Below, one piece after another: positions 8,175 through 23,703 of a stretch of 64,000 nt of DNA (position 1 is the stretch's first letter; each line of letters starts with the position of its first letter). The notes under the pieces were generated by a model, which saw nothing but the letters and a program-made list of their open reading frames with translations, had not been told where the DNA came from and did no database searches. Source of the stretch: Oscillospiraceae bacterium (GTDB lineage Bacteria > Bacillota > Clostridia > Oscillospirales > Acutalibacteraceae); the NCBI GenBank assembly GCA_910574935.1, contig CAJTCU010000008.1:62001-126000 (forward strand), read 5' to 3'. The position numbers and the translations under genes are program-made.

Positions 8175-8338
8175 TAGAGTCTATTTTCAGCCGCCGAAAC
8201 AGTCTGTTTTGACCAGAAAGGGCGCTTTCAGTGCCAAAAATCCTGGAAAGGCGGCCAGCATTTCTTGGGGTTCTTCCTTGAAATCCCCGTTTCCTGGCCC
8301 AAAATTCCGCGTTTCTCTGGCTTTCAAATAGACTCCTA
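8175..8338. mobile_element. family A miniature element, copy 1 (divergent)
   Basis: A 164-bp non-coding element with imperfect terminal inverted repeats: left TAGAGTCTATTTTCAG, right (reverse complement) TAGGAGTCTATTTGAAAG. Its interior, with CCTGGAAAGGCGGCCAGCAT, is close to the copy at 19494-19661. Both ends are TA. A further left-end fragment, TAGAGCCTGTTTAACATCGG, lies just outside at 8134. Confidence 0.75.
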
Positions 8339-8385
8339 GCATATTTTCCGCCATAGCACCCAACTTTCGCTTGCCGGATCCTAAG

Positions 8386-8449
8386 ACCATAAGTGGTCTA
8401 ACCATAAATGGTCTAACCATAAATGGTCTAACCATAAATGAAATGGTCT
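8386..8449. repeat. four tandem 15-bp repeats, each an inverted repeat
   Basis: Units of ACCATAAATGGTCTA run at 8386-8400 (with AAGTGG), 8401-8415, 8416-8430 and 8431-8449 (last unit with a 4-bp insertion). Each unit contains ACCAT..ATGGT, so the array presents four short dyads at a 15-bp period. This could be a protein-binding array or simple repeat expansion. No gene start lies immediately beside it. Confidence 0.8.
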
Positions 8450-8965
8450 GATTGGCGGCGCTCCATTTGGGCACTCTGGCGAAAAATCTAACATTGCAAT
8501 GGATGCGCGCCCAGATATGAAACAAGCTCTTAGGCACCACGGGCTTTCATTTGTAGTGATTCCTTGCGGGGATCGTGTGGAGGAAAGAGGGGGTCTCTAT
8601 CGATCTTGTTTGCGGATGAAAGCGGCTGGACTGGACCGGCTGGGGACGACGTATTATTTGATTACGCTAAGTAGCCGGTGGTCCGTGTCCTCCCTTGAGG
8701 CATCTCCTGGTTTTTAAGAAGAGACGAACTCTCGTTGGCCCTTCTTTATTAGTGGCTTCCACCAGGCCGGTTCACGCGTTAACTTGGGGGCAAGGTGGAG
8801 GCCGGCAAAGGTGAGGGGGCCCGCCTGGCGGGGAGCATATTGACGGACCCAAAGTGTTTGGGAGCATCCGAAGAGCGCGCTGGCTATGCCGGCGGACAGC
8901 ACCCAGGGAGGACGGGGCTGCGCCCGGCTCCGCGAAGGAGCGGCGACGTTAGGCTGCCGCTTGTG
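8450..8965. other. intergenic stretch without a recognisable gene
   Basis: About 515 bp between the tandem repeats and the end of the first TM2 gene. A plus-strand open frame at 8499-8717 (72 aa) has no recognisable motif or ribosome-binding site and is not called. Nothing else is supported. Confidence 0.6.
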
Positions 8966-9673
8966 TTAGGGACGAAGGATAACGTTGTTTCCATCAAATT
9001 TGGGGCCGTTGGCGGAAAGAAGCATGACGCCTTCGATAAAGCCCCAGATGACGGCCGCCACAGAGGCAACCCCGCAGGTGATGAGGCCGCCCGCCAGGCA
9101 CAAAACCAGCTGGATGGTGCCCCGGGTGTTGAAGCCCATATAGAAATTGTGAATGCCAAAGCATCCAAATATAATGGCCAAAAGCCCAGCGGCCAAACGG
9201 CTGCGCTGCTGGTACCCAGCGGGGGGCTCGGTATATTGGGGCTGAACCGGCGCCTGGGGCTGCTGGTAGCTTTGGGCCGTGTAATTGGGGGCTTGATAGC
9301 CGTGGTAGGCCTGAGACTGGGTGTACTGGGGCGGTTGATAGCCCTGCTGGGGCTGGCCGCCATAGTTATACTGGTTATTGTACTGGGGAGCCTGCTGCAC
9401 CACTGGCTGGGGGGGAGGCTCCGGAGCGCGGGGAGGCTCTGGGAAGGTGATGGTGGGCGGAGCGGGATCTGGCTCCAAGGTGAGCTGGGGCACGGGCTTT
9501 TCATCCACAGGGGCAGCGGGCACAGGGGGGTCCCCTTCGCCTGCGGGAGCGGCAGGCTCCACAGCGGCAGGGGCCGGGGCAGGTTCTGGGGGCTGGGGTT
9601 CAGAGGCGGCGGGCGCGGGCTGCGCCGGGGTGGCCGGCTCTTGGTTTAGGTCCTTATTTTCAAAATCGCTCAT
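8966..9673 (-). CDS. TM2-domain membrane protein with Pro/Gln-rich N-terminus
   Basis: This 235-aa protein has a long low-complexity N-terminal half rich in Pro, Ala, Gln and Tyr (about residues 12-150). It then has a C-terminal TM2 domain: SRLAAGLLAIIFGCFGIHNF, a short loop FYMGFNTRG and a second membrane segment with CLAGGLITCGVASVAAVIWG. TM2 proteins are two-pass membrane proteins of largely unknown function in bacteria; the disordered half would be cytoplasmic. ATG 9673 follows a GGAGGTG site. It lies 15 bp downstream of the second TM2 gene, so the two form an operon and are likely paralogues. Confidence 0.88.
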   Translation of the reverse strand: MSDFENKDLNQEPATPAQPAPAASEPQPPEPAPAPAAVEPAAPAGEGDPPVPAAPVDEKPVPQLTLEPDPAPPTITFPEPPRAPEPPPQPVVQQAPQYNNQYNYGGQPQQGYQPPQYTQSQAYHGYQAPNYTAQSYQQPQAPVQPQYTEPPAGYQQRSRLAAGLLAIIFGCFGIHNFYMGFNTRGTIQLVLCLAGGLITCGVASVAAVIWGFIEGVMLLSANGPKFDGNNVILRP

Positions 9674-9688
9674 AGGGCACCTCCTGGG

Positions 9689-10021
9689 TCAGTCTTTAAG
9701 AAATACGCCGTTGGCGTCCGTGCTAATGCGGCCATCCAGCAGCTTAACGCCGTCCAGGATGCTCCATATCTCCACCACAATGGCCCCCACGCCGCAGGTT
9801 AAAAGGGAGATGAGCAGCTGCATAAGGCCCCGGGACGTGTTGCCCAGGTAGAAGCTGTGGACACCATACACCCCCAGCAGGATGGCCAAAATGCCTGCCG
9901 CCACCCGGCTGCGCTGGGTATAGCCGGGAGGAGGGTCGATGCCTGCCTGAGGCTGGTACTGGGGCGGGTTATACATGGGCTGGCCCTGGGGCTGGTAGTT
10001 TCCGTGGTTATAGTCTGCCAT
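9689..10021 (-). CDS. TM2-domain membrane protein
   Basis: A 110-aa two-pass membrane protein. A short Gln/Tyr/Pro-rich N-terminus precedes the TM2 core SRVAAGILAILLGVYGVHSF, the YLGNTSRG turn and the second helix LLISLLTCGVGAIVVEIWSI. It is a shorter paralogue of the next gene, with matching ends of the TM2 domain (GVKLLDGR / GVMLLSANG). ATG 10021 has AAAGAGGTG upstream. As with other TM2 proteins, the molecular role is not known. Confidence 0.88.
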   Translation of the reverse strand: MADYNHGNYQPQGQPMYNPPQYQPQAGIDPPPGYTQRSRVAAGILAILLGVYGVHSFYLGNTSRGLMQLLISLLTCGVGAIVVEIWSILDGVKLLDGRISTDANGVFLKD

Positions 10022-10228
10022 AGTGATACACCTCTTTGCGTTTTCGGCGGGCCTGCCAGGCTGGTGGTGAGAGGGGGGCCCTGGGGCGCCGTCTTTGTGT
10101 CTTTATCTTAGCACGAAACCCTTTGGGAAAGCAATAGGGCGGGGGCAAAAGTAAGGGATTCTTAATTTGTAGAAAGCCTTTTGGCGGGAGTTTTGAAAAA
10201 AATTCGAAAATATTTTTATTTTTTCGGG

Positions 10229-10266
10229 AAAAGTTGTCTTTTAGAGAACAACTTTTGTGCTTTTTT
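10229..10266. promoter_or_regulatory. inverted repeat ahead of the phage cluster
   Basis: AAAAGTTGT (10229-10237) and ACAACTTTT (10248-10256) form a perfect 9-bp dyad, followed by GTGCTTTTTT. It may be a terminator protecting the phage cluster from upstream reading, or an operator. It lies in a notably A+T-rich stretch (10140-10330) about 110 bp before the portal gene. No convincing promoter was found. Confidence 0.5.
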
Positions 10267-10366
10267 AAGGGGTATATGAAAGGAGGTTTTAGCGGGACCG
10301 AAAAAAGCGGAGGAAGAGGAGGGACCGGATTTATCAAAACAATCAACAGGAAAGGAGCTTGAACAA

Positions 10367-11497
10367 GTGCTGGGTCTAAAAAAGAAGAACCGGCGGGCCG
10401 GCGGGGCCTTTGACGAGTGCGGGGTGCTGGCCACCAGCGTACAGAGCCGGCCAGCGGAAGGGGGCGTGCTGCTGCCAGCGGGCGCGGGAGAGCGGGAGCT
10501 GTACCGCAGCCTGCGGGAAGCGGTGCCCATTATTGACGCGTCTATTTACAAGCTGCGCCGGCTCATCGGCGGCTTTCAGGTGTCCTGCCCTCAGGAGCGG
10601 GCGGAGAAGAGGCTGAAGGAGTTTTTAGAGGGGGTACAGGTGAACGCTGCGGGCAGCGGTATTCATGAATTCCTGGGCGTTTACCTGGAAGAACTGGTGA
10701 CCTATGGCACGGCGGTGGGCGAGATGGTGCTCTCTGGCGGGCAGGTGGCGGCCTTGTATAATGCGGGGCTGCGAAACCTGGAGCTGGAAGAGGACGGGCC
10801 CCTGGGGGTGAAGGTCTCGGTACTGGAGGAGGGGGAAAAGCGCCCCTGCCCCCACCCAGAACTGCTGCTGGTTTCGGCCCTGAACCCGGCGGCGGGGTCC
10901 CCCTGGGGGGTGTCGCTGCTGCGGGGGCTGCCCTTTGTTAGCGGGGTGCTGATGAATATCTACCGCACCCTGGGGGTGAACTGGGAACGCATGGGCAACG
11001 TACGCTTTGCGGTGACCTGCCAGCCGGAGGGCCCCCTAACAGGAGCCGGAGAGCGGGCCAAGCAGATGGCCCAGGAGTGGAAAGCTGCCATGAGCAGCCG
11101 GGAGCCCAGGGATTTTGTGGCAGTGGGAAACGTGAGTATTAAGGCTATTGGCGCGGACCACCAGATGATGGACAGCCAGGTACCGGTGCGGCAGATGCTG
11201 GAGCAGATTGTGGCCAAGCTGGGCCTGCCGCCCTTTTTGCTGGGGCTTAGCTGGTCCTCCACAGAAAGGATGTCCAGCCAGCAGGCGGACGTGCTGACCA
11301 GCGAACTGGAGGCATACCGGCGGGTACTGACCCCAGTGATACGAAAGATCTGCCGAACCTGGCTGGCCCTGGAGGGCTACCCCCAAGAGTGCGAGATAGA
11401 GTGGGAAGAGATTACCATGCAGGACGAGGTGGACCACGCCAACGCCCGGTATCTGCTGGCCAGGGCCAGGAAGCTGGAGCGAGAGCTGGAGGAATAG
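10367..11497 (+). CDS. phage portal protein (PBSX XkdE-like)
   Basis: Portal proteins form the dodecameric ring at the unique capsid vertex through which DNA passes. This 376-aa protein shows typical portal features: PIIDASIYKLRRLIGGF near the N-terminus, VTYGTAVGEMVLSGG, LPFVSGVLMNIYRTLGVNW and PFLLGLSWSSTERMSSQQAD near the C-terminus. GTG 10367 is preceded by GGAAAGGAG. It is the first gene of the plus-strand structural cluster and corresponds in order to xkdE. No terminase gene precedes it. Base composition resembles the surrounding genes, which suggests long residence (inference). Confidence 0.88.
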   Translation: MLGLKKKNRRAGGAFDECGVLATSVQSRPAEGGVLLPAGAGERELYRSLREAVPIIDASIYKLRRLIGGFQVSCPQERAEKRLKEFLEGVQVNAAGSGIHEFLGVYLEELVTYGTAVGEMVLSGGQVAALYNAGLRNLELEEDGPLGVKVSVLEEGEKRPCPHPELLLVSALNPAAGSPWGVSLLRGLPFVSGVLMNIYRTLGVNWERMGNVRFAVTCQPEGPLTGAGERAKQMAQEWKAAMSSREPRDFVAVGNVSIKAIGADHQMMDSQVPVRQMLEQIVAKLGLPPFLLGLSWSSTERMSSQQADVLTSELEAYRRVLTPVIRKICRTWLALEGYPQECEIEWEEITMQDEVDHANARYLLARARKLERELEE

Positions 11498-11522
11498 ACG
11501 GGTAGTTTTCCGCCAGACGGCC

Positions 11523-11687
11523 TAGGGCTTGTTTGAAAATAGAGGAAATGACGAATTTTGGGCCAGAAGGGGACAATTTCAAGGAGAAAACCGCAAGGCA
11601 ATCTCGCGATTGACGAGGATTTTCGACGTAGAAAGTGGCCTCTTCTGGCAAAAAAGACGACGTTTTCGATTTTTCAAACAAGCCCTA
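11523..11687. mobile_element. family A miniature element, copy 2, inside the phage cluster
   Basis: A 165-bp element with near-perfect ends: TAGGGCTTGTTTGAAAA on the left and TTTTTCAAACAAGCCCTA on the right. The inverted similarity extends about 50 bp inward, including GCCAGAAG on both arms. It is almost identical in reverse orientation to the copy at 39191-39376. It sits between the portal and protease genes. The rest of this 353-bp gap (11688-11850) holds only the ribosome-binding site of the next gene. Confidence 0.9.
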
Positions 11688-11850
11688 GGGCCCCAATATA
11701 TTGTAAACGCACTTGGAAGTCGGTAAAGACCGGTTTTTTTAGCAAGCGGCTGGTCCGCTGGTTCAAAAGGGTGAATGCGCTTGAAGGATTTTGCCTCTTT
11801 TGCACCGCGTGAACCAATAACGCAAAGAATGAATACGAAGGAGGATGCCT

Positions 11851-12801
11851 ATGAATTTGAAAGAGGGACGAGTGGTGAAAGCCGCCCAGGAGCTGAGCCA
11901 AGAAGAGATGGGGGCGATCAACCGCTACACACGCCGGGCCTATGAACCCCAGGAGGTATATGTGTTTTCCCTTGTGCTGTGCGACAACCAGGTGGACCGG
12001 GATCTGGAGCGCTTTCCCAAGGAGAGCCTGGAGCGGCTGAAGGAGCTGTTTTTAGGCAAGACCTGCATTTTAGACCACGAGTGCAAAAGCGCCAACCAGA
12101 CCGCCAGGATTTTCAGCACAGGGATGCGGATTTGTGAGGACCAGCGGACCAAAACCGGCGAACCCCTGGCGCAGCTTACCGCCCAGGCATACCTGCCCAG
12201 AACCAAGGGCAACGAGGAGACCATTGCCCTGATTGACGGGGGAATTTTGAAGGAGGTGAGCGTTAGCTGTAGCGTAAAGCGCCGGGTATGCAGCGTCTGC
12301 GGCCAGGAGCAATGCGCGCATGTGCCGGGCCGGGAATATGGGGGCCAGGTGGCCCACCACCTGCTCTTGGAGCCCACGGACGCCTATGAGTGCTCCTTTG
12401 TGGCAGTGCCTGCCCAGCGGGGCGCGGGGGTGACCAAACATTTTGCCGGGGAAGAAGCGGTGGACAAGCTGCTAGGCCAGGCCCAGGCGGAGGCAGTGGT
12501 GATTTCAAAAGCCCAGGCCGGGGAGATTGGTCGTAGATTCCGGGCCCTGGCGGAAAAGGCCCGCTGGGGCCAGCGCTATCGCCGGGAGCTGGAAAAGGGG
12601 GTGCTGAAGTACAGCGCCATAGTACAGCCGGAAATGCCCCGGGAGGTGATGGAGGCCACGGTAAAGGCGCTGGGCATAGAGGAGCTGGCCGCCATGGAAA
12701 AGACCTATGGCCGGATGGCGGAGAGAGCCCTGCCCCTGCGGCCCCAGCTGGCCCCAGAGCCCGGAGACCGGGAAGAGGGCAACGGGGAGTTTCGGATATA
12801 A
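11851..12801 (+). CDS. phage prohead protease (XkdF-like)
   Basis: Capsid maturation protease candidate of 316 aa. A possible catalytic pair is seen in CILDHECKSA (His) and ILKEVSVSCSVK (Ser), the spacing expected for HK97-type prohead proteases. The following CSVCGQEQCAHVPGREY looks like a zinc-binding insertion, and YECSFVAVPAQRGAGVTK closes the protease domain. A helical C-terminal part (about residues 215-316) could act as a scaffold. ATG 11851 is chosen because GAAGGAGG ends six bases before it; ATG 11845 is too close. It corresponds in order to xkdF. Confidence 0.8.
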   Translation: MNLKEGRVVKAAQELSQEEMGAINRYTRRAYEPQEVYVFSLVLCDNQVDRDLERFPKESLERLKELFLGKTCILDHECKSANQTARIFSTGMRICEDQRTKTGEPLAQLTAQAYLPRTKGNEETIALIDGGILKEVSVSCSVKRRVCSVCGQEQCAHVPGREYGGQVAHHLLLEPTDAYECSFVAVPAQRGAGVTKHFAGEEAVDKLLGQAQAEAVVISKAQAGEIGRRFRALAEKARWGQRYRRELEKGVLKYSAIVQPEMPREVMEATVKALGIEELAAMEKTYGRMAERALPLRPQLAPEPGDREEGNGEFRI

Positions 12802-13089
12802 GTGAGGACCTTTCCTTTTAGAAAGGAAGTGGCAAAAATGGAACATGACGAGGTGAAGGCGCGGGGAAAGCCGCCAGCGGCAAAGAGCTGACGCGCAAAG
12901 GGGTTACGCGGGTCTCAGGCCGGCCGGCGAGACACTGTGCCCCACGCATTTACCAGCGTGAGAAGTCTGGTCGCTCCATAGGGCGCAATACCAGCGCAGA
13001 GCGGGCGTTCCAGGGCAATTGAAAAACTTTACGGCTTTATCGTGATGAGAACACCTAAAAATTATAATTTTTTAAAGGAGAATGAACTT
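12802..13089 (+). other. leader of the capsid gene: hairpins and a 17-codon reading frame
   Basis: A 288-bp gap. At 12838-12891 a 17-codon frame (MEHDEVKARGKPPAAKS) follows AAAGGAAG and could be a vestige of a scaffold gene. Beyond it, GTCTC...GAGAC and CACGC...GCGTG form successive hairpins, and the region ends with AAAGGAG before the capsid start. No full gene is supported here. A structured leader giving high capsid expression is one possibility. Confidence 0.5.
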
Positions 13090-14124
13090 ATGGCTTATTA
13101 CGAGAATATTGGGTTGGAAAAAGGCATGTACCACACCCCGGGCAAGAGCTTTACCCAGGTGCTGGAAGAGCTGGACCGCTCGGAAAATTACCGGGGCACA
13201 GCCCTGGAGGGCCTAGACGCCTACCAGCGCCAGCTGAAGCGCTTTGCCATTAAGGTGAGCGGGCCGGACTCCGGCACAGTGGAACAGTTCTTCCAGAGCG
13301 GCGCCAGCGCCGCGCTATTCCCGGAATATGTGGCCCGAGCCGTGCGCCAGGGCATGGACAGCGTGACGAAGATTAACGACCTGGTGGCCACGGTGACCAA
13401 AATTGACGGGATAGACTACCGCACCATTGCCGCCAAAGAGGAGGCCGGCACCCAGGCCGCCGAGACCAGCACCACCCCGCTGGAGCTAGAGGGCGCCGCG
13501 CTGCCAGTTACCAATATCCGCGCCAACCAGAGTTTGGTACCTATGAAAAAGCATGGACGGATGCTGGTGAGCTCTTACGAGGCCCTGCGTTTTCAAAAGC
13601 TGGACCTGTTTACCGTGGCCCTGCGGCAGATTGGGGCGTACATTGCCACCGAGCAGCTAAACGACGCGGTGGGGGTGCTGATCAGAGGAGATGGGAGTAA
13701 GGACGGCGTGGCCTTTCTCTCAGGAGCCACCCCCAATTATGGGGATTTTATTGGCGCGTGGGCCGCGCTGGCGCCCTTTAAGCTGAACACTGTGGTGGCA
13801 GGGACCGACGCCATGCAGAAGCTTTTGCAGGTGGAGGAGTTTAAGGACGCCCAGGCTGGCATGAACTTCCAGGGCACGGGCAAGCTGTGTACACCCCTGG
13901 GCGCGAAGCTCATCCATGTGCCGGGCATGGAGAATCACAAGATCATTGCCCTGGACAAGAACGCGGCCCTGGAGATGGTGCAGTCTGGCGGGGTAGTTAC
14001 AGACTGCGACAAGCTGATCGACCGGCAGCTGGAGCGGGCCGCCATTAGCGTGACCTGCGGCTTTGCCAGAATTTTTGAAGGCGCGGCCATAGGGCTAGAG
14101 ATTACGGAAGCCGCAAAGGCGTAA
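13090..14124 (+). CDS. phage major capsid protein, HK97-like fold
   Basis: A 344-aa capsid subunit, corresponding to xkdG. Segments typical of the HK97-like coat fold are visible: SASAALFPEYVARAVRQGMD-like ASAALFPEYVARAVRQG near residue 80, LVPMKKHGRMLVSSYEALRF in the spine/P-domain region, VALRQIGAYIATEQLNDAV and the late beta strands LGAKLIHVPGM and KIIALDKNAALEMV. There is no long N-terminal delta or scaffolding domain, so any scaffold would have to come from the protease tail. ATG 13090 follows AAAGGAGAATG; the frame is open upstream to 13042 without a good site. The protein appears intact. Confidence 0.85.
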   Translation: MAYYENIGLEKGMYHTPGKSFTQVLEELDRSENYRGTALEGLDAYQRQLKRFAIKVSGPDSGTVEQFFQSGASAALFPEYVARAVRQGMDSVTKINDLVATVTKIDGIDYRTIAAKEEAGTQAAETSTTPLELEGAALPVTNIRANQSLVPMKKHGRMLVSSYEALRFQKLDLFTVALRQIGAYIATEQLNDAVGVLIRGDGSKDGVAFLSGATPNYGDFIGAWAALAPFKLNTVVAGTDAMQKLLQVEEFKDAQAGMNFQGTGKLCTPLGAKLIHVPGMENHKIIALDKNAALEMVQSGGVVTDCDKLIDRQLERAAISVTCGFARIFEGAAIGLEITEAAKA

Positions 14125-14176
14125 GCAGGGTTAACCATAGGAGTTGCCGGGCGGGCGGGAGGACGAAGGGGGTTTT

Positions 14177-14548
14177 ATGGAAATCAGCTTGGAGAACGTG
14201 CAAGAAAAATTTATACTGTACAGCGGCGAACCCATGGACGGGCAGGACCCTCGGCGGGACAAGCTTTGCGGGGAGCTGTGCCGGGAGTGCGCGGGCTGGG
14301 TGGGGCGGCGGCTGCTGCCCGGAGCAGAAGAGGGCCGGGCCGGGGAGGCCGAGAGCTGGGCCGCTGCCAGGGCCTTTTATCAGCTGACCCTGCTGGACCA
14401 GGCCACGGGGCCTATGGCTGTGGCTTCGCCAGAGCTAAAGGTGGAGCTGGGAGACCGGGCCCGGCACGCCTGGGAGCTTTGTGAGGAAAAGTACCGGGCC
14501 TGCGCCGGGCTGCTGGGCTGGGACAGGTTCTATTTTGGACAGGTGTAA
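14177..14548 (+). CDS. probable phage head-tail connector (adaptor)
   Basis: A 123-aa mainly helical protein (MEISLENVQEKFILYSGEPM at the start, LCEEKYRACAGLLGWDRFYF at the end) directly after the capsid gene. This is where PBSX-like phages encode the helical adaptor ring that joins portal and neck. Sequence similarity to a specific family cannot be claimed; the call is from position, size and helical character. ATG 14177 has GAAGGGGG upstream. The next gene starts 10 bp later. Confidence 0.6.
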   Translation: MEISLENVQEKFILYSGEPMDGQDPRRDKLCGELCRECAGWVGRRLLPGAEEGRAGEAESWAAARAFYQLTLLDQATGPMAVASPELKVELGDRARHAWELCEEKYRACAGLLGWDRFYFGQV

Positions 14549-14558
14549 GGAGGCGCGG

Positions 14559-14891
14559 ATGGGGGACTTATCGCGGAACATCTACCGGCGCGCGCCGGTA
14601 GCGGTATTGATAAAAGGAGATGGCTCCCGGACCCTGGGCCGGGGGGCCGTGGCGCGGTTGAAAGGACAGGCTGGTATGTTTGGCCCCCGGCTGGCGGCGG
14701 AGATAGGCCTTTTATGCAGTCCGCTGTACGTGTTTACAGGCTGGCTGGAAGGGGTGCGGCCGGGGGACGCCCTGGAACAGGCCGGGCAGACGTACCGGGT
14801 GCTTTTGGCAGAGGAGCTGGCCATTGGCGGGACAAAAATATGCCTGCGGGTTCTGCTGGAAAAGGAGGTGGGCGCGGATGAGAGCCCATGA
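14559..14891 (+). CDS. probable phage head-closure (stopper) protein
   Basis: A 110-aa protein rich in predicted beta strands, with YRVLLAEELAIGGTKICLRV near its end. Small beta-barrel head-closure proteins occupy this position between adaptor and tail-completion genes in PBSX-like phages. ATG 14559 follows TAAGGAGG, and the coding sequence overlaps the next gene by 14 bp, indicating translational coupling. Assignment is from order and size, so moderate. Confidence 0.55.
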   Translation: MGDLSRNIYRRAPVAVLIKGDGSRTLGRGAVARLKGQAGMFGPRLAAEIGLLCSPLYVFTGWLEGVRPGDALEQAGQTYRVLLAEELAIGGTKICLRVLLEKEVGADESP

Positions 14892-15576
14892 GCTATTAAT
14901 AGATCTGCTGGAACGCTTTGCCCTGGCTGTGCCAGAGGCGGATTTTCGCTTGGGGTGGCGGCAGCTGCCGGCCGGACGGCTGCCCACCCGGCCGGTGGTT
15001 ACCGGGCAGGTGGAAAAGGAGGTCCGGGCTGGAGGGGGCTGGGAGGCCAGCCTGGGGTTTACGGTATGGCTGCCCAGGAATGCCCAGGCGGACTGGGCGG
15101 AAGAAATTATGGCGGCCATCACCGCCACGGCAGAAACCGGACAAGCAGCCCCTACGGGGATGGAACGAGGGGCGGTCTGTGTGGACAAGAATACCGGGCT
15201 GCTGGCCCTGGCGGTAGTCTTTCGCTTTGGAACGGTGGGAAGCGCTGCTGGCAAAAAGACCTATCCGGTCTGGCTGGACGGGAAGAAGTATGCGGTAACT
15301 GGGTGGAAAGTTTCGGTGGGGGGCAGTGTGGAAGAGCTGGTGGCCGTGGGCGAGGACGAGCCCTTTGCCTGTATGGGCAGAACCGTATATACCGTGGAGC
15401 TGAAAGGGCTTGGCGGCCTGGGACTGGCCCTGGAAGGAAGCGTTGCCCTTCAGGTGGAGAATTGGCGTTTTGAGGGCTGCCGGTGGAAGAGCCTCTCTGC
15501 TGAGGGCGGGGTACTGGTATCGGAAAAAAGGACGGAGGTGGAAGGATGGAGGAGCTGGAACGGGCTGAGGAACTGA
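14878..15576 (+). CDS. probable tail-completion protein with an extra C-terminal beta-rich domain
   Basis: A 232-aa protein. The first ~125 residues (MRAHELLIDLLERFALAVPE then strands to LALAVVFRFGTVG) fit a tail-terminator/neck protein of the type that follows head closure. The remaining ~100 residues are a separate beta-rich block, with YPVWLDGKKYAVTGWKVSVG and ALQVENWRFEGCRWKSL. That block vaguely recalls phage tail-tube proteins, which would be notable because no separate tube gene is present. That resemblance is inference only. ATG 14878 is preceded by AAAAGGAGGTG inside the upstream gene. Confidence 0.5.
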   Translation: MRAHELLIDLLERFALAVPEADFRLGWRQLPAGRLPTRPVVTGQVEKEVRAGGGWEASLGFTVWLPRNAQADWAEEIMAAITATAETGQAAPTGMERGAVCVDKNTGLLALAVVFRFGTVGSAAGKKTYPVWLDGKKYAVTGWKVSVGGSVEELVAVGEDEPFACMGRTVYTVELKGLGGLGLALEGSVALQVENWRFEGCRWKSLSAEGGVLVSEKRTEVEGWRSWNGLRN

Positions 15577-15623
15577 GCCGGGAGCTGGAACGGGATAGCC
15601 GCCGCTATCCGGCGCAGCTGTGA
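15546..15623 (+). CDS. 25-residue peptide at the place of the missing tail genes
   Basis: MEELERAEELSRELERDSRR followed by YPAQL, a charged helix. ATG 15546 has GGAGGTGGAAG upstream and overlaps the end of the preceding gene; its TGA overlaps the longest possible start of the next. It lies exactly where PBSX-like phages carry sheath, tube, chaperone and tape-measure genes. It may be a real micro-protein, or the remnant of a longer gene left by deletion. Confidence 0.4.
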   Translation: MEELERAEELSRELERDSRRYPAQL

Positions 15624-15637
15624 AAGGGGGCGAAAGA

Positions 15638-16147
15638 GTGAACCTGATGACCATGCGTTTTAAAGACTTTACCTGGCGGATAAATCCTACCCAGCTGTAT
15701 GTGGAATGCGCCCGGAACCTGAAGGAGACCCTGCTGCCCTTCCAGGGCGGGGAGGCCGTGGACCTGGGGCCCAAAAAGCGGCGGGTCAGCGGCGTGGGGT
15801 ATTTTACCGGGGAGGACTGTGCCGGACAGTGGCGGCGCCTGGAAGCGCTGCTGGCCGAAGGCGGGCCGGGATATTTGCAGCTGCCTGGGCAGGCGCCTTT
15901 TTTGGCGGTGCTGGACAACCTAAAGCTGCTGGGAGAGGCAGGCGGGGGGCTGGTAAAGTACAGCTTTGCATTTACCGAGTATAAGGCCGGGGCTCGGTAC
16001 CTGGGGGTGCGTTACGCGGCCGCTGGGGAGAGCCTGTGGGACTATGCCGGGCGCTTTGGCTGGGACATAGAAGCCCTGCGGGCGGCCAACCCCCATATAC
16101 GGGACATCGCGGACCTGAAAGAGGGAGAGGAGGTGCATGCCCCATGA
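15638..16147 (+). CDS. LysM-type baseplate/tail protein (XkdP-like)
   Basis: A 169-aa protein. The N-terminal part (FKDFTWRINPTQLYVECARN, VSGVGYFTGEDCAGQWRRLE) resembles the domain that links tape measure and hub in contractile tails. The C-terminal ~55 residues are a LysM-like peptidoglycan-binding repeat, with ESLWDYAGRFGWDIEALRAA followed by NPHIRDIADLKEGEEV. GTG 15638 is preferred because GGGGG lies eight bases upstream. Its TGA overlaps the ATG of the next gene. It corresponds to xkdP in order. Confidence 0.75.
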   Translation: MNLMTMRFKDFTWRINPTQLYVECARNLKETLLPFQGGEAVDLGPKKRRVSGVGYFTGEDCAGQWRRLEALLAEGGPGYLQLPGQAPFLAVLDNLKLLGEAGGGLVKYSFAFTEYKAGARYLGVRYAAAGESLWDYAGRFGWDIEALRAANPHIRDIADLKEGEEVHAP

Positions 16148-17058
16148 CTTTTTGGGGAACTTTAGCCGGGGGCGGGCAGATGCTGCTGGGCGCCCCCAAG
16201 GAGGCGGTGCTGTCTTATGACAGGGAGGCCCCGGCCTGCCAGCTGAAAGCGATATTTCCCGCAGAGCGGATCTGGGAGGACCTGGAAGAGGTGCGGGTAT
16301 ACGAAGGCGGCCGGGGGCTGTTTCGGGGGATGGTAGATGAGCAGAACACCGCCATGGGCCCCAAGGGGCTGCTAGTGGAGTTGGTGTGCAGAAGCCGGGA
16401 AGCCCTGCTGCTGGACAACGAGGCGGAGCCCAGAGCTTTTGGGAACCCTTCTTTGGGCGCTATCCGGCGCAGGCTGCTGGAGCCCCTGGGCTTTGACCAG
16501 GTGACAGGAGAGGACGGACGCTTTCCTGGGGAGCTTTTGGTGGAGAAGGGGCGGTCTTGCTGGCAGGTGCTGGCAGAATTCTGCCAGGACTACCTGGGCA
16601 CCCGGCCCTATGTGGACTTTGAGGGAGTCCTGCACTGCGAGGGGGCCGGGCCCGGGGAACTGGAGCTGGACCGAGTGATGGAGGCCAAACTGTGCCGCCT
16701 GCCCTGTAAACGGCTGAGTGCCCTATACAAGCAGGGATACCGCGGGGGCTATGATACCCGGTTTACCGACCCGGAGGCGGCTGTTCCCAGGCGCAGGTAC
16801 ATTAGCGCCCAAAGCGGCCAAAACCCCCGGCAGCTGCTGAAAGAGGCCCGGCAGGCGAGCTTTTTGCTGACAGTAACCTGTGCGGGGGCCTGGTGGCCCC
16901 AGGGAGACTGCACCGCCCGGGTGGCCCTGCCCCGGGTGGGACGATTTGTGGGATGCCCGGTAAAAAAGGCGGTGGTGTGGATGGATGGCAGCGGAGTGCG
17001 CACTCGGCTGACCCTGGAGAAAGGAGAGGATGAGCGTGTGGCTGACAGAGAGGCTTAA
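16144..17058 (+). CDS. baseplate hub protein (gpD/XkdQ-like)
   Basis: A 304-aa homologue of contractile-tail hub proteins of the late-control-D/XkdQ type. VLSYDREAPACQLKAIFPAE, VRVYEGGRGLFRGMVDEQNT and LVCRSREALLLDNEAEPRAF form the N-terminal barrels; SCWQVLAEFCQDYLGTRPYV and YKQGYRGGYDTRFTDPEA occur further on. The start ATG overlaps the preceding stop (ATGA) and the end overlaps the next gene by 29 bp. The hub would hold the spike at the tail tip. Confidence 0.78.
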   Translation: MTFWGTLAGGGQMLLGAPKEAVLSYDREAPACQLKAIFPAERIWEDLEEVRVYEGGRGLFRGMVDEQNTAMGPKGLLVELVCRSREALLLDNEAEPRAFGNPSLGAIRRRLLEPLGFDQVTGEDGRFPGELLVEKGRSCWQVLAEFCQDYLGTRPYVDFEGVLHCEGAGPGELELDRVMEAKLCRLPCKRLSALYKQGYRGGYDTRFTDPEAAVPRRRYISAQSGQNPRQLLKEARQASFLLTVTCAGAWWPQGDCTARVALPRVGRFVGCPVKKAVVWMDGSGVRTRLTLEKGEDERVADREA

Positions 17059-17365
17059 GCCCGGAGATAACGTGCGGCTGCGCAGTGGGCTGGTGGAGAG
17101 CGAGGGGGGCTTTGCGGTGCGGAGCGACAGCGAGCACCGGGCCCCAGAGCAGCTGTTTCCCTATGGTTTTGCCAGCGCCGCCCAGAGCGGTCGCCCGGCG
17201 GTGATGCTGAATGGCTACTGCGCGGGGCTGGCCAGCGCCCCGGACCCCACCCTGGAAGAGGGGGAGGTACGGCTGTACTCGGCCGGAGGGGCGGAAATTT
17301 TGCTGAAAAATAACGGGCAGGTGGTGGTGAACGGCCAGGTCTTTGCCCCAAAGGAGGCGGGGTGA
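17030..17365 (+). CDS. baseplate spike-associated protein (XkdR/DUF2577-like)
   Basis: A 111-aa beta-rich protein: an OB-like segment (SVWLTERLKPGDNVRLRSGL), QLFPYGFASAAQSGRPAVML and a C-terminal repeat with LYSAGGAEILLKNNGQVVVN that resembles the short beta-helix of phage spikes. Order matches xkdR between hub and XkdS. ATG 17030 has AAAGGAGAGG upstream within the hub gene. Family assignment is moderate. Confidence 0.65.
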   Translation: MSVWLTERLKPGDNVRLRSGLVESEGGFAVRSDSEHRAPEQLFPYGFASAAQSGRPAVMLNGYCAGLASAPDPTLEEGEVRLYSAGGAEILLKNNGQVVVNGQVFAPKEAG

Positions 17366-17709
17366 TGGACCTAAAGCTGGAAAACGGAAACATCGCCCTG
17401 GGCCCTGGGGGCCTGCCCCAGATGGTGGGAGGCCTGGAGGAGCTGCTGCAAAACGCCTGGCTGCGGCTGAGCATCCGCCGGGGCAGCCTGCCCTATTGCC
17501 GGGAACTGGGCAGCGGGCTGTGGCAGTGGGACCCCCAGGAGGACCATGCCCTGGACCGGGCTGTGGCACTGGCCAATGAAGCCCTTCTGGACCTGCCGGG
17601 GGTGCGGGCCAAAAGGGCGGAGACAACAGAGGGCGGCGTGCGGTTTTTGATGGAGACGCCGCTGGGAGAGGGGGAAATTATCATTGGAGACATACCAAGA
17701 GATACTTGA
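17365..17709 (+). CDS. baseplate protein gp25/XkdS-like (DUF2634)
   Basis: A 114-aa wedge component of contractile-tail baseplates. It begins MDLKLENGNIALGPGGLPQM and contains ELLQNAWLRLSIRRGSLPYC then ELGSGLWQWDP, a pattern typical of gp25/XkdS proteins, which help trigger sheath contraction. ATG 17365 lies after GGAGGCGGGG and overlaps the previous stop. The 3' end overlaps baseplate J by 26 bp. A gp25-like protein without a sheath gene is odd. Confidence 0.75.
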   Translation: MDLKLENGNIALGPGGLPQMVGGLEELLQNAWLRLSIRRGSLPYCRELGSGLWQWDPQEDHALDRAVALANEALLDLPGVRAKRAETTEGGVRFLMETPLGEGEIIIGDIPRDT

Positions 17710-18739
17710 CAGGATGCGGAGACAGTACGCGGACAAAAGCGGCGGGACACCCGACGAAGCGGGGGACATTGGCATACGCCTACAGGTGCTGGCCGGAGAA
17801 ATCTACCGCTTGCAGGCGGGGATTGAGTGGGTCCGGCGGGAGGCGTTTCCCCAAACGGCCCAGGGGGAGCAGCTGGACCGCCACGGGGCCCAGCGGGGGC
17901 TGGCCAGAAAGCCCGCCCAAAAAGCCCAGGGGGTGCTGCACTTTTGCCGGTACCTGCCCCTAAGCTTTGACCTGGTGATTCCCAAAGGCACGGTATGCGC
18001 CGCTTACGGAGACGAGGCGGTGGAGTATGAGACCACCCAGGACGTGTCTTTGCCCGCTGGAGACCTAGCTGTGGGGGCTCCGGCCCAGGCGGCGGAAGCA
18101 GGCAGCCGGGGAAACGCGGCCTCTAACTACATTAACACCTTGGTGACGCCGGTCAACGGCATACAGTATGTGGTGAACCACGGCGCCTTTACCGGTGGGG
18201 CCGAGGCGGAGGACGACGAGGCCTACCGCCAGCGGGTGCTGGAGGCCTTTTCCCGGCCTATTTTAATGGGCAATCCGGCCTACTATGAGGCCCTGGCCCG
18301 GGCGGTGCCGGGGGTGACAAAGGCCCAGGCCGTAGCGGCGGAAAGCGGCGGGGCGGCAGTGTACCTTTGGGGAGAAGGCCAGGCCCCGGACGAAGCCCTG
18401 CTGGCCGCGGCCACAGAAGCTTTGAGCCGGGAAAAGCCCCTGGGGGCGGCATTGACCATACAGGCGGCCACCACCCGCAAATGCAATGTGATGGCCACCA
18501 TGAAGATGCGGCCCGGGCTGAACTTTGCAGAGGCCAAGGAGCGGGCCAAAGCCGCCCTGGGTCAGTGGTTTGACCAAAGGGAGATTGGCGGCGGGGTGTA
18601 TACAGGGGACTTAGCCCGGGTAATCCTGGGAGACTCCGCCATTGGCAAGCTGACCTTGAACAACGCGATTGCGGACTATGCCGGGGCGGCGGGAGTATTG
18701 CCCATTATGGGCGTGGTCTCCCTGACGGAGGCCGCATGA
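17684..18739 (+). CDS. baseplate J-like protein (gp47/XkdT)
   Basis: A 351-aa baseplate wedge protein. The core reads AAYGDEAVEYETTQDVSLPA, then GNAASNYINTLVTPVNGIQYV (given here as GNAASNYINTLVTPV and NGIQYV), and GGAEAEDDEAYRQRVLEAFS, which is the baseplate J hallmark; VPGVTKAQAVAAE follows. TTG 17684 starts the protein (METYQEILDRMRRQY), with GGGAGAGGGGG upstream. It follows gp25/XkdS and precedes the tail gpI-like gene, the order seen in PBSX, Mu-like and P2-like phages. Confidence 0.88.
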   Translation: METYQEILDRMRRQYADKSGGTPDEAGDIGIRLQVLAGEIYRLQAGIEWVRREAFPQTAQGEQLDRHGAQRGLARKPAQKAQGVLHFCRYLPLSFDLVIPKGTVCAAYGDEAVEYETTQDVSLPAGDLAVGAPAQAAEAGSRGNAASNYINTLVTPVNGIQYVVNHGAFTGGAEAEDDEAYRQRVLEAFSRPILMGNPAYYEALARAVPGVTKAQAVAAESGGAAVYLWGEGQAPDEALLAAATEALSREKPLGAALTIQAATTRKCNVMATMKMRPGLNFAEAKERAKAALGQWFDQREIGGGVYTGDLARVILGDSAIGKLTLNNAIADYAGAAGVLPIMGVVSLTEAA

Positions 18740-19203
18740 GCGCCGGGGAGGACCTGCGCCGGATTCTTTCTGCCACAGGCGCGTACCAGTTGACCGGCAG
18801 CAGTCCGCTGGACTGGGAGTTGGACGCCTACGCCGAAGGATTGGACGCGGCGTGGGCACAGGTAGACCGGGCACTGGCGGAGCTGTTCATTGAGACCGCG
18901 CCAGAAGAAACGCTGGGCCAGTGGGAGATTTTGTTCCACGGCCAGGCCCTGCCGGGAGAACCGGCGGACCGCAGGCGGGCGCTGCTGGGGCTGCTGGGGG
19001 CCTACCGGGGGCCGGGGACCCTGGCGGAACTGAGGAGCGTGGTAGAAGCGGCGGGGATTGACGGCGCGGTGGAAGAGACAGAGACAGGAGTAATCATTCG
19101 GGCTAAAGGATTTTTGGGCGTGAGCGAGACGGAGGCCAGACGGCTGCTGGCGAGGCTGATGCCACTGCATCTAAACTGGGAACTGATTGTGGAAACGGAA
19201 TAG
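18736..19203 (+). CDS. tail protein of the XkdU/DUF2313 (gpI-like) type
   Basis: A 155-aa protein. Typical features are SSPLDWELDAYAEGLDAAWA, DRALAELFIETAPEETLGQW and RRRALLGLLGAYRGPGT-like ADRRRALLGLLGAYRGPGT, ending with a small C-terminal domain (LMPLHLNWELIVETE). Such proteins join baseplate J to tail fibres. No fibre gene follows; a terminator begins five bases after the stop. Start ATG overlaps the previous TGA. Confidence 0.78.
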   Translation: MSAGEDLRRILSATGAYQLTGSSPLDWELDAYAEGLDAAWAQVDRALAELFIETAPEETLGQWEILFHGQALPGEPADRRRALLGLLGAYRGPGTLAELRSVVEAAGIDGAVEETETGVIIRAKGFLGVSETEARRLLARLMPLHLNWELIVETE

Positions 19204-19207
19204 GCGA

Positions 19208-19242
19208 AGAGGGCTTCTCACAGGGGAAGCCCTCTTTTTTTT
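19208..19242 (+). terminator. intrinsic terminator of the phage cluster
   Basis: A perfect 10-bp stem, AGAGGGCTTC (19208-19217) and GAAGCCCTCT (19226-19235), is followed by a run of T to 19242. It closes the structural operon immediately after the XkdU-like gene, so no further phage genes are co-transcribed. Confidence 0.9.
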
Positions 19243-19330
19243 CGGAAAGGCCCAGAACCCCAAGGGGAAGCCGGCGGGACCACAGAGGGCGTCTCCTTGG
19301 CAACAGATAAAGCTTATGGTTCACACAGGC

Positions 19331-19495
19331 TAGGGCTTGTTTGAAAAATCGCAAACACCGTCTTTTTGCCCGGTCCGGGCGGATTTGTGTGTGGAAAATC
19401 CTTGTAATACGAAAGGATTCCTGGCGGTTTTCTTCGTCAAACCGCACCGGCCAGGGCAAAAAGACGGCATTTTCTCTGTTTTCAAACCAGCCCTA
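19331..19495. mobile_element. family A miniature element, copy 3
   Basis: A 165-bp element. Left end TAGGGCTTGTTTGAAAA; right end TTTTCAAACCAGCCCTA. It abuts copy 4, and the two share one TA. Confidence 0.85.
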
Positions 19496-19661
19496 GAGTC
19501 TGTGTGAAAACTCCGAAACAGGGGCTGTTTTGCCCAGAAATGGTGGCTTCGGCGTCAAAAGTTCTGGAAAGGCGCCAGCATTTCTTGCGGCTTTTTTCCT
19601 TGCAAGGGCCCCTCTTCCGGGCCAAAAAAGATCATTTTTCTCTATTTTCAAACAAGCTCTA
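19494..19661. mobile_element. family A miniature element, copy 4
   Basis: A 168-bp element directly adjoining copy 3. Left end TAGAGTCTGTGTGAAAA; right end TTTTCAAACAAGCTCTA. Its interior, with TCTGGAAAGGCGCCAGCAT, resembles copy 1 at 8175 more than copy 3, so the neighbours are not a simple duplication. Both ends are TA. Confidence 0.8.
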
Positions 19662-20092: not shown

Positions 20093-21229
20093 GTGAAAAA
20101 GTATTTGGCCCTTCTTCTTGCTCTGCTGACAGCGGCCCTCTCTCTGCCGGCTTTGACCGCCCACGGCCAGGAGGAGCTGACCCTTTCGGCCCCGGCGGCG
20201 GTGCTGATGGAGGCCGGCACCGGGCAGGTACTCTTTGAAAAAAACGCCCATGAGGTGCGTCCCTGTGCCTCTATCACCAAAGTAATGACCCTGTGCCTGA
20301 CCTTTGACGCCCTGGAGGCGGGCCAGCTGCGCCTGGAGGACCAGCTGACGGCCTCGGCCCACGCGGCCTCCATGGGCGGGTCGGACATCTGGCTGAAAGA
20401 GGGAGAGCAGATGAGCGTGGACGACCTGCTAAAAGCCACGGTGATTATGAGCGCCAACGACGCGGCGGTGGTGCTGGCCGAAAACGTGGCGGGCAGCGAA
20501 GAGGCCTTTGTGGCCAGAATGAACGAAAAAGCCCAGGAGCTGGGCATGGGGGACAGCGCCTTTAAAAATTGCAACGGGCTGGATGAGGAGGGCCATGTGA
20601 CCAGTGCCTTTGACGTGGCACTGATGAGCCGGGAACTGATCAAACACAAAAAAATTCAGGACTACACGCTCACCTGGATTGACTATGTACGGGACGGGGC
20701 CACCCAGCTGGTGAACACCAACAAACTGATCCGCAGCTACCAGGGCATTACGGGGCTAAAGACCGGCACTACCACCCAGGCGGGCAGCTGTATCACTGCC
20801 ACGGCGGAGCGGGGCGGCCTGCGGCTGATCGCGGTGGTGCTGGGGGCCCCCAGCACGGACGACCGGTTCCGGGACGCGGCGGCGCTGCTGGACTATGGGT
20901 TTGCCGGGTGGACCGTCACCGTGCCCGAGAGCCCGGAGCTGCCGCCGGTGGCGGTGGCGGGGGGCATGGAAGAAACAGTACCCGTGCGCGCGGGCGAGAT
21001 GCCGGAGATTCTGATGAGGACCTCGGCTAAAGGAGAGGTGGAGGAAAAAATCAGCTGGAAGCAGGGGGTGACTGCTCCGGTAAAAGAGGGGGATGTGCTG
21101 GGGAAGATCAGCTATCTGGCAGGGGGAGAGACCGTGGCCCAGGTGGAGATTAAAGCGGCGGGAGAGGTGGCGGCCATTACCTTTGGCTCGGCCTTTGGAT
21201 ATTTGCTGCGGGGGCTGCTGACGCTATAG
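20093..21229 (+). CDS. dacF: D-alanyl-D-alanine carboxypeptidase (penicillin-binding protein 5/DacF type)
   Basis: A peptidase S11 enzyme that trims the terminal D-Ala from peptidoglycan stem peptides outside the membrane. The 378-aa protein begins with a signal peptide (KKYLALLLALLTAALSLPAL). The three active-site motifs are present: SITK near residue 60, SAN near 119 and KTG near 222. A C-terminal beta domain and a final hydrophobic helix (FGSAFGYLLRGLLTL) would tether it to the membrane. GTG 20093 is the start. It is a monocistronic plus-strand gene. Confidence 0.93.
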   Translation: MKKYLALLLALLTAALSLPALTAHGQEELTLSAPAAVLMEAGTGQVLFEKNAHEVRPCASITKVMTLCLTFDALEAGQLRLEDQLTASAHAASMGGSDIWLKEGEQMSVDDLLKATVIMSANDAAVVLAENVAGSEEAFVARMNEKAQELGMGDSAFKNCNGLDEEGHVTSAFDVALMSRELIKHKKIQDYTLTWIDYVRDGATQLVNTNKLIRSYQGITGLKTGTTTQAGSCITATAERGGLRLIAVVLGAPSTDDRFRDAAALLDYGFAGWTVTVPESPELPPVAVAGGMEETVPVRAGEMPEILMRTSAKGEVEEKISWKQGVTAPVKEGDVLGKISYLAGGETVAQVEIKAAGEVAAITFGSAFGYLLRGLLTL

Positions 21230-23289: not shown

Positions 23290-23703
23290 ATGGTTACTCT
23301 TTTGACTGGTAAAAAAGGTTCGGGCAAGACAAAGAAACTGATTGAGATGGTCAACGCCGCCCTGGAAAAGTCCAACGGCAACGTGGTGGTCATTGAGAAA
23401 GGCCAGCAGATGACCTACAACATTCCCTATGCCGCCCGCTTGGTAGATTCTGACGCGTATGATATTAAGGGCGAGGACGCCCTGTTGGGCTTTATCAGCG
23501 GCATTTGCGCGGGCAACTATGACGTGACCGACATCTTTGTGGACTCCACCCTAAAGATTACCGGCACTGGGGCCGAGGCCTGCGCTTACCTGGTACCCGA
23601 GCTGAAAAAGCTTAGCGAGTCCGCCAGTACCTCGATTGTGCTTTCCATCTCTGCCGCCGACGAGGATATTCCAGCCCAGGTGGCTGACTGCGTGCTGAAA
23701 TAA
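23290..23703 (+). CDS. small P-loop ATP-binding protein, unknown function
   Basis: A 137-aa cytoplasmic protein with an N-terminal Walker A motif, LLTGKKGSGKTKKLIEMVN, a nucleotide-binding-like strand NVVVIEK and a possible Walker B-like DIFVDSTLKI. It is about half the size of typical AAA or PilT ATPases, and I do not recognise a named family. ATG 23290 follows AAAGGAG. It lies between pgi and the DUF177-rpmF pair, with the strong promoter of that pair starting just after its stop. Function is not assignable. Confidence 0.75.
   Translation: MVTLLTGKKGSGKTKKLIEMVNAALEKSNGNVVVIEKGQQMTYNIPYAARLVDSDAYDIKGEDALLGFISGICAGNYDVTDIFVDSTLKITGTGAEACAYLVPELKKLSESASTSIVLSISAADEDIPAQVADCVLK

Follow-up and report, generated by a model that had tools for sequence, protein, structure and literature searches.

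What kind of particle, if any, is specified by a chromosomal cluster of phage genes that retains portal, protease, capsid, neck and baseplate genes and lacks a terminase and a sheath? The question is raised by positions 10367-19203 (+ strand) of the window, a stretch of 64,000 nucleotides from an Oscillospiraceae bacterium (assembly GCA_910574935.1, contig CAJTCU010000008.1, positions 62,001 to 126,000; G000:C8:62001-126000 in our numbering), which we annotated by profile searches against Pfam, PHROG and NCBIfam. A first-pass annotation of the same DNA described a stripped-down PBSX-like cluster and suggested a preserved, repurposed particle, perhaps a capsid with a baseplate, no real tail and no normal route of DNA packaging. 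We find that the window cluster is one reduced form of a single-copy family residing in Oscillospirales chromosomes, and we favour, at a probability of roughly 0.6, the reading that it encodes a domesticated, vertically inherited, phage-derived mini-particle akin to gene transfer agents (GTAs), with a tail of about one tube ring and, in the window's genus, with the packaging motor lost as well.

Within the genus, orthologs of the portal protein, and of XkdT at an identity of at least 42%, each occur in 24 of 29 genomes, and wherever contigs reach far enough the loci have the same gene order next to the same TM2-domain genes. Their cluster proteins are about 30 to 98% identical to those of the window, with frames open in most. 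The first-pass annotation had proposed looking among relatives for a common gene set with common absences at a common site, and genus members do carry the same genes, lack the same genes and occupy the same place, with no full prophage. Beyond the genus, the portal profile matched 101 of 395 genomes in an even draw of the order, once in each genome (up to five candidates were scored per genome), and among the own-family genomes shown it matched 51 of 60; of 393 genomes drawn from the class it matched 9, all of them within Oscillospirales. Six of 50,697 phage records matched, namely five unannotated faecal contigs and, at 27%, one Microcystis phage. A tree of portal, protease and capsid from 48 genomes follows that of RpoB (Mantel r 0.875, a value reached in 0 of 999 permutations), both inside the genus (n=18, r 0.773, 0 of 999) and outside it (n=30, r 0.755). 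The two trees have 24 of 45 splits in common, against a mean of 0.13 and a maximum of 2 after shuffling, and of 25 element splits with strong support, 18 are also found in the RpoB tree. On this congruence, inheritance of the cluster has been mostly vertical and, as expected of a GTA, it is a structural cluster fixed in chromosomes.

The absence of a terminase and a sheath, reported in the first-pass annotation, held up: profiles that we built for terS, terL, sheath, decoration and fibre genes matched none of the window's frames of at least 40 codons at E <=1, and the idea of a sheath or terminase elsewhere in the window was rejected on these grounds. Scanned permissively, the gaps between genes yielded only weak matches, all in the protease-capsid gap (terS 0.02; terL 0.013, on the opposite strand), which we took as chance. 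A full prophage hidden nearby was likewise rejected, since none of the 16 flanking open reading frames (ORFs) scanned in Pfam is an integrase or a phage lysis gene, in agreement with the earlier annotation. Its description of the flanks as ordinary chromosomal genes stands for the 13 of the 16 that belong to host-type families; the other three (8187-8540, 10008-10346 and 23290-23703) have no strong Pfam match.

The first-pass annotation also regarded the whole block between neck and XkdP (xkdK-O, with sheath, tube, chaperone and tape measure) as missing, which holds for the sheath but not for the whole block: a tube domain remains, and apparently a tape-measure remnant too. The third neck gene, n3 (14878-15576, + strand), is predicted to fuse a tail terminator (N-terminal half) to a tail tube domain (C-terminal half). 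Its AlphaFold2 (AF2) model (pLDDT 85.7) has tail terminators among its best Foldseek matches (Mu 1.9e-4, lambda gpU 3.9e-4) and the tail tube CD1364 (6gkx) at rank 33 (E 0.013, aligned ranges not displayed). The two halves match separate genes in other genera, and in sheath-bearing clusters the homolog of the second half lies directly 3' of the sheath. Searched against PDB, a profile of the separate tube protein returned three tail-tube proteins (best 8q01, E 0.016; two others at about 0.5), and a single tube sequence returned designed proteins only. Neck-tube fusions occur in at least two forms, terminator plus tube in the window's genus and n2 plus tube in Caproiciproducens and others (6 loci). 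A model of the latter (pLDDT 78, pTM 0.52) scored best on phage 812 neck-tail entries (2e-4 to 4e-4), of which 8q01_A is the tail tube, with a weak fold match to 6tba, the tube of RcGTA, and with the stopper-terminator complex chain 8gtf among the weaker matches (E 0.024). Because of the terminator and tube fold matches, the separate genes elsewhere, the position after the sheath and the PDB profile matches, we take the C-terminal half of n3, as modelled, to be a tube domain; the n3 model, its Foldseek matches, the PDB profile search and the fusion model together overturn the earlier reading of 'no tube gene'.

Overlapping the end of n3 in another frame is a micro-ORF of 25 codons (15546-15623, + strand; MEELERAEELSRELERDSRRYPAQL), which matches positions 159-187, the C-terminus, of a profile (TMP) of the protein at the tape-measure position of sheath-bearing relatives, at E 4.4e-9 in a 30-row scan. 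The micro-ORF occupies the same place in relatives, and its core, compared across 120 genus pairs, has a nonsynonymous divergence (pN) of 0.110 and a synonymous divergence (pS) of 0.590 (pN/pS 0.187); the sequence pattern used for this comparison picked up 16 of 23 genus loci, and the micro-ORF is also found in L036, L041 and L043. Sheath-bearing relatives in which a protein was found at the tape-measure position mostly have one of 96-260 amino acids (54 in L129), often with RDARRYDGGF or a similar sequence at its C-terminus. Its counterpart in sheathless clusters mostly has 25-56 amino acids and in general retains a DSRRYP-like core; some of these clusters gave no ORF at that position. We infer that the micro-ORF is the remnant of a tape measure, an identity assigned from its place among the genes; the earlier claim of no tape measure is thus correct for the full-length gene, which is gone, and not for its end. 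Tails are about 1.5 Å long per tape-measure residue, a rule by which 25 residues would give a tail of about one tube ring.

How such a form arose can be followed across 131 non-redundant genome loci (140 less nine duplicates; 80 of the loci are the top 80 from no fewer than 505 relatives). The fullest members, of about 12-13 kb, read terS-terL-portal-protease-decoration-capsid-neck-terminator-sheath-tube-chaperone-short tape measure-baseplate, and some also have a gene for a fibre. Among the 100 loci in which 6.5 kb or more is visible beyond the capsid gene (31 of the 131 are shorter), 11 have a sheath and 56 are sheathless with four or more baseplate genes; another 30 have one baseplate gene or none, G018 being scored as without a baseplate because its cluster is split, and 3 are intermediate. 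Some homologous clusters encode a sheath of about 350 amino acids, usually with a tape measure of 96-260; the sheath of L103 is genuine (PF04984 8e-13, PF17482 5e-12; the pyocin sheath in PDB, 0.0016). All seven genomes fetched from one other family (f14) contain sheath sequence; in one of them a contig end cuts it short, and the remaining six have tape measures of 163-215 amino acids. The sheath was found in one of 18 genomes fetched from the window's own family (G312, tape measure 100 amino acids) and in one of five from another (G426 of f25), where the other four lack most of the baseplate. Most own-family members examined have thus lost the sheath, with a tape measure mostly of 25-56 amino acids, and 13 loci combine the absence of a baseplate with a terminator joined to a fibre-like protein. 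Given sheath- and terminase-bearing homologs in other genera and families, the gene contents indicate that the reduced form is derived stepwise. A terminator bearing a fibre-like domain with no baseplate genes, as in L054, L079, L087, L109 and others, amounts to a head-plus-fibre form of the family. In one f25 genome (L333:9384-11316), and likewise in L178, the capsid-like and protease-like genes after the portal have swapped places.

The terminase is adjacent in 96 of the 97 loci outside the genus whose upstream side is visible, versus 3 of 21 inside it (in G003 the side where it would lie is off the contig), and DNA packing is for this reason probably ancestral. Most species of the window's genus, in which terminator and tube are one protein, have neither terS nor terL. 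On a rooted RpoB tree the three terminase-keepers form one clade (with G015, in which no cluster was found) that is sister to the rest of the genus, so that a single loss is sufficient, and the terminase was gone before most of the genus diverged while the other cluster genes persisted; the 48-genome comparison tree would require two losses. Queried with the terminase of L040, 9 of the 29 genus genomes have relatives, three of them inside clusters. The six non-cluster matches (G007 54%, in a genome with no cluster; G020 44%, G000 35%, G018 31%, G009 30%, G022 26%) include no shared replacement ortholog of this type, unrelated terminase families not having been searched. The G007 match belongs to a terS-terL pair (C14, L310:7925-10037) whose terL is 54% identical to the cluster type; the 18 kb retrieved there contain no further cluster gene, and the cluster site of that genome is empty.

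Whether these genes are still under selection was assessed with omega (Nei-Gojobori) in eight genome pairs, the terminase-keeping pair being reported apart. In the other seven, omega is 0.03-0.43 over the cluster genes, two short xkdR rows excepted (G000/G014, 37 codons, 0.79; G002/G005, dS not computable), and for RpoB, where measured, 0.03-0.09. Between the window and its nearest relative it is 0.048 for the portal, 0.067 for the protease, 0.24 for the capsid and 0.21 for XkdT. Lengths are near-constant (XkdP has 168 amino acids in 18 of 21 loci), and a gene of the sheath-initiator family, XkdS/gp25-like, is retained although the sheath is gone. One TAG was flagged in the portal match of G017, where the open frame has 375 codons. 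A decaying prophage should have omega near 1, frameshifts and scattered presence, and this is not the pattern found, though 3, perhaps 4, of the 24 carriers are broken. The suggestion of a preserved, repurposed particle is therefore upheld in part, being backed by the shared gene set and by purifying selection and tempered by the relatives in which the cluster is broken or lost. Selection still maintains the cluster, which suggests that the particle is of some use to the host.

Several observations weigh against this reading. Clean empty sites, with the TM2 genes followed by an hflX-like gene (by Pfam), occur in G006, G007, G028 and G013, and G015 is without a portal or XkdT match. Among the carriers, the capsid gene of G018 is interrupted, G027 has a deletion that runs from portal to capsid, G024 (genome 60% complete, contig of 4.5 kb) has one from protease to hub, and G011 is possibly broken, with its portal match in two pieces and a short capsid frame. 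Such empty sites and broken carriers imply that the cluster is dispensable: it is retained in many species and is not essential to the genus. In addition, the terminase-keeping pair is less constrained (omega 0.35-0.78, RpoB 0.12), some pairs approach saturation at synonymous sites, and three element splits with strong support disagree with strong RpoB splits. The TMP motif is present in 18 of 18 complete genus loci, yet in just 29 of 49 outside the genus, a count in which the sheath-bearing L103 and L108 are scored as without the motif because its spelling differs. The terminase search covered the L040-type family, so that other families may be encoded elsewhere in the genomes. In G018 (C16, about 38.1 kb and 164.1 kb; L338:1791-2114 and L312:9091-9861) the capsid gene is split near codon 77-79 by about 126 kb of other DNA, and the junctions have nine bases in common, which looks like a site-specific element within the gene.

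Under the reading that we favour, capsid and portal would assemble and the protease would mature a small head; n1 and n2 would close the portal; the fused terminator-tube ring would be the entire tail, a stub roughly one tube ring long; the micro-protein would span from ring to hub in the place of the tape measure; and XkdP-U would build a baseplate with hub and spike. With no sheath such a particle could not contract, and with no terminase it could not fill itself. The capsid-and-baseplate particle of the first-pass annotation fits this anatomy, except that a tube domain and a tape-measure remnant remain and that the loss of the terminase is specific to the genus. The ancestral form may have been GTA-like and have packed host DNA with its own terminase, a suggestion that we advance with more reserve. 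For the present form, an empty particle acting through a surface-binding baseplate seems slightly more likely than one that an unrelated terminase encoded elsewhere fills: the rooted tree places the loss of the terminase far back, and the search, made with a terminase of the old type, found no relative of it shared among these genomes. Put most specifically, the product would be a capsid free of DNA and unable to contract, with a one-ring tail, a full baseplate and a 25-residue tape-measure micro-protein, domesticated by the genus once its packaging motor was gone: a host-owned nanoparticle at the far end of a stepwise tail reduction across the order; this full version is tentative, with the odds somewhat against it.

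Known GTAs can be spread over several loci, and the cluster could instead be part of a working GTA in which a terminase encoded elsewhere packs host DNA that is delivered through the stub tail. We consider this doubtful: it gains from the terminase found beside nearly all clusters outside the genus, from a portal and neck retained under constraint and from the two operons of the Faecalibacterium GTA and the absence of identifiable tails reported for its particles (PMC12946183), but in the six genus genomes where the L040-type terminase lies outside clusters it is no shared ortholog. The slow decay of an ancient prophage, with genes lost singly and neutral leftovers remaining, is in our view quite unlikely. 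The four clean empty sites and the broken carriers are what it would predict, the decoration, fibre and terminase genes are already gone from the window, and one TAG was flagged in the terminase match of G016; against it are open frames in most loci over the whole range of identities, near-constant lengths, an omega well under 1, the conserved micro-ORF, and the persistence of the other genes although, on the rooted RpoB tree, the terminase was lost before most of the genus diverged. A mobile satellite or helper-borrowing phage spreading horizontally would explain a capsid-rich, incomplete gene set and might draw on the separate contractile elements of some genomes (sheath family PF17482, in 4 of 29 genus genomes). 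It is nonetheless highly improbable in view of the congruence with RpoB, the single portal match per genome, the fixed site within the genus, the lack of an integrase among the flanking ORFs scanned and the failure to find PF17482 in the other 25 genomes, a distribution on which we also rejected a sheath supplied by a second element. The window's own genome has other contractile-type elements: that on C14 (L308, L309) includes a terminase, a sheath frame of 474 codons and a relative of Baseplate_J, and that on C2 (L313) a distant Baseplate_J relative.

The remaining features of the locus, all on the + strand unless noted, are as follows, and the genes that the first-pass annotation placed here were recovered by Pfam and PHROG matches, or by position for n1 and n2. 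The portal gene (10367-11497; phrog_30703, E 7.8e-123) has a GTG start, with an alternative later GTG at 10424. The prohead-protease-like protein (11851-12801) matches phrog_16951 (E 4.4e-89), a family of unassigned function; His76 and Ser137 are invariant in 14 of 14 aligned sequences, a CxxC...C.H motif is also there, and the protease role is suggested by position, these residues and a weak NCBIfam match (E 0.0066). The major capsid protein (13090-14124) matches phrog_3922 (E 7.8e-77) and PF25209 (E 2.4e-10). The putative head-completion/connector-like n1 (14177-14548; family in 26 of 30 loci) and stopper-like n2 (14559-14891; 24 of 30) have no convincing match in Pfam or PHROG. The baseplate genes comprise an XkdP-like baseplate/LysM protein (15647-16147; PF07157, DNA_circ_N, 3.4e-4; PF01476, LysM, 1.1e-3; phrog_184 1.6e-7), an XkdQ-like hub (16144-17058; phrog_177, E 4.7e-8), an XkdR/Mu gp45-like possible central spike (17030-17365; weak matches to phrog_25991, 3.7e-4, and PF06890, 0.1), the XkdS/gp25-like wedge protein (17365-17709; phrog_120 1.1e-5, PF10934 0.0036), the Baseplate_J wedge protein XkdT (17684-18739; PF04865 5.5e-48, phrog_6 5e-65) and an XkdU/gp48-like protein (18736-19203; phrog_521 2.5e-6, PF10076 0.0017). 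None of the 10 proteins given to NCBIfam was named above its cut-offs, and the label 'PBSX-like' refers to gene order and baseplate families, not to a direct comparison with XkdE/F/G of PBSX.

The operon ends, as first annotated, in a terminator-like hairpin (19206-19237, 14 pairs with a T-rich tail); such hairpins are about as frequent in shuffled sequence, and this one is the longest. On the left, about 345 bases from the portal gene, lie two TM2-domain host genes (8966-10021, - strand; PF05154), the conserved left neighbours both in genus loci that reach that far and at empty sites. The composition, earlier said to match the host, is near that of the surroundings and slightly above it (GC 59-64% in 3-kb blocks, against 55-61% in the other blocks measured). 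A 167-nt repeat in the portal-protease gap (11522-11688, no strand assigned), resembling a miniature inverted-repeat transposable element in appearance, has a 72% copy in the opposite orientation at 19330-19496, and a partial copy follows at 19623-19661. After the cluster comes a D-alanyl-D-alanine carboxypeptidase gene (20093-21229), which we take as a host gene and which some relatives also have after theirs (L033, L034, L035, L037, L060).

If our reading is right, these loci form a natural series in which a contractile tail is dismantled piecewise under selection: the sheath is lost, the tape measure shrinks to a micro-protein, the tube is fused to the neck and in places the baseplate goes as well. 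The minimal length of a tail, the minimal part of a tape measure and the use of a terminase-less particle would thereby become testable, and a GTA-like family across Oscillospirales would stand beside the one recently published from Faecalibacterium.

We found no published description of the cluster among the papers listed on GTAs, domesticated prophages, Firmicutes and Clostridia, tape measures and Acutalibacteraceae, judged on titles and abstract openings. The nearest published system found is FpGTA of Faecalibacterium, for which the paper reports a terminase, portal and capsid operon in 12 of 12 genomes examined, particles of about 40 nm with no identifiable tail and about 9 kb of DNA, baseplate genes, and a second operon that contains the lysis genes, the authors regarding it as most likely podovirus-like (Borodovich et al., 2026; PMC12946183). 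The likeness is one of description, and the window has no terminase, whereas FpGTA is reported to have both terminase and lysis genes. Four genomes of a genus that we take to be Faecalibacterium (g120) are inferred to have been in the order draw, and none matched the portal profile; in one of them, G1122, 800 kb of 2,816 kb (28%) scanned with the cluster profiles gave no match. We presume this identity from a 16S probe target that occurs six times in G1122; three other genera each have one genome with one or two copies of it. PBSX of Bacillus subtilis resembles the cluster in being chromosomal and defective and in the order portal-protease-capsid-neck...XkdP-Q-R-S-T-U, but it uses its contractile tail to kill and has a terminase and lysis genes besides the sheath, the tube and a long tape measure. 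The window gave no match to a terminase or a sheath and no lysis gene among the 16 flanking ORFs, and only a tube domain and a 25-codon tape-measure remnant are left in it. RcGTA and other alphaproteobacterial GTAs have a siphovirus-like tail and a terminase; the window cluster is like RcGTA in its vertical inheritance, purifying selection and lack of replication or integration genes, and differs in having no terminase of its own, a family-level comparison being limited to the weak tube fold match to 6tba. R-type tailocins and extracellular contractile injection systems (eCIS) also have domesticated baseplate hub, spike and wedge genes, but they keep the sheath and tube and drop the head, whereas the window cluster keeps the head and drops the sheath.

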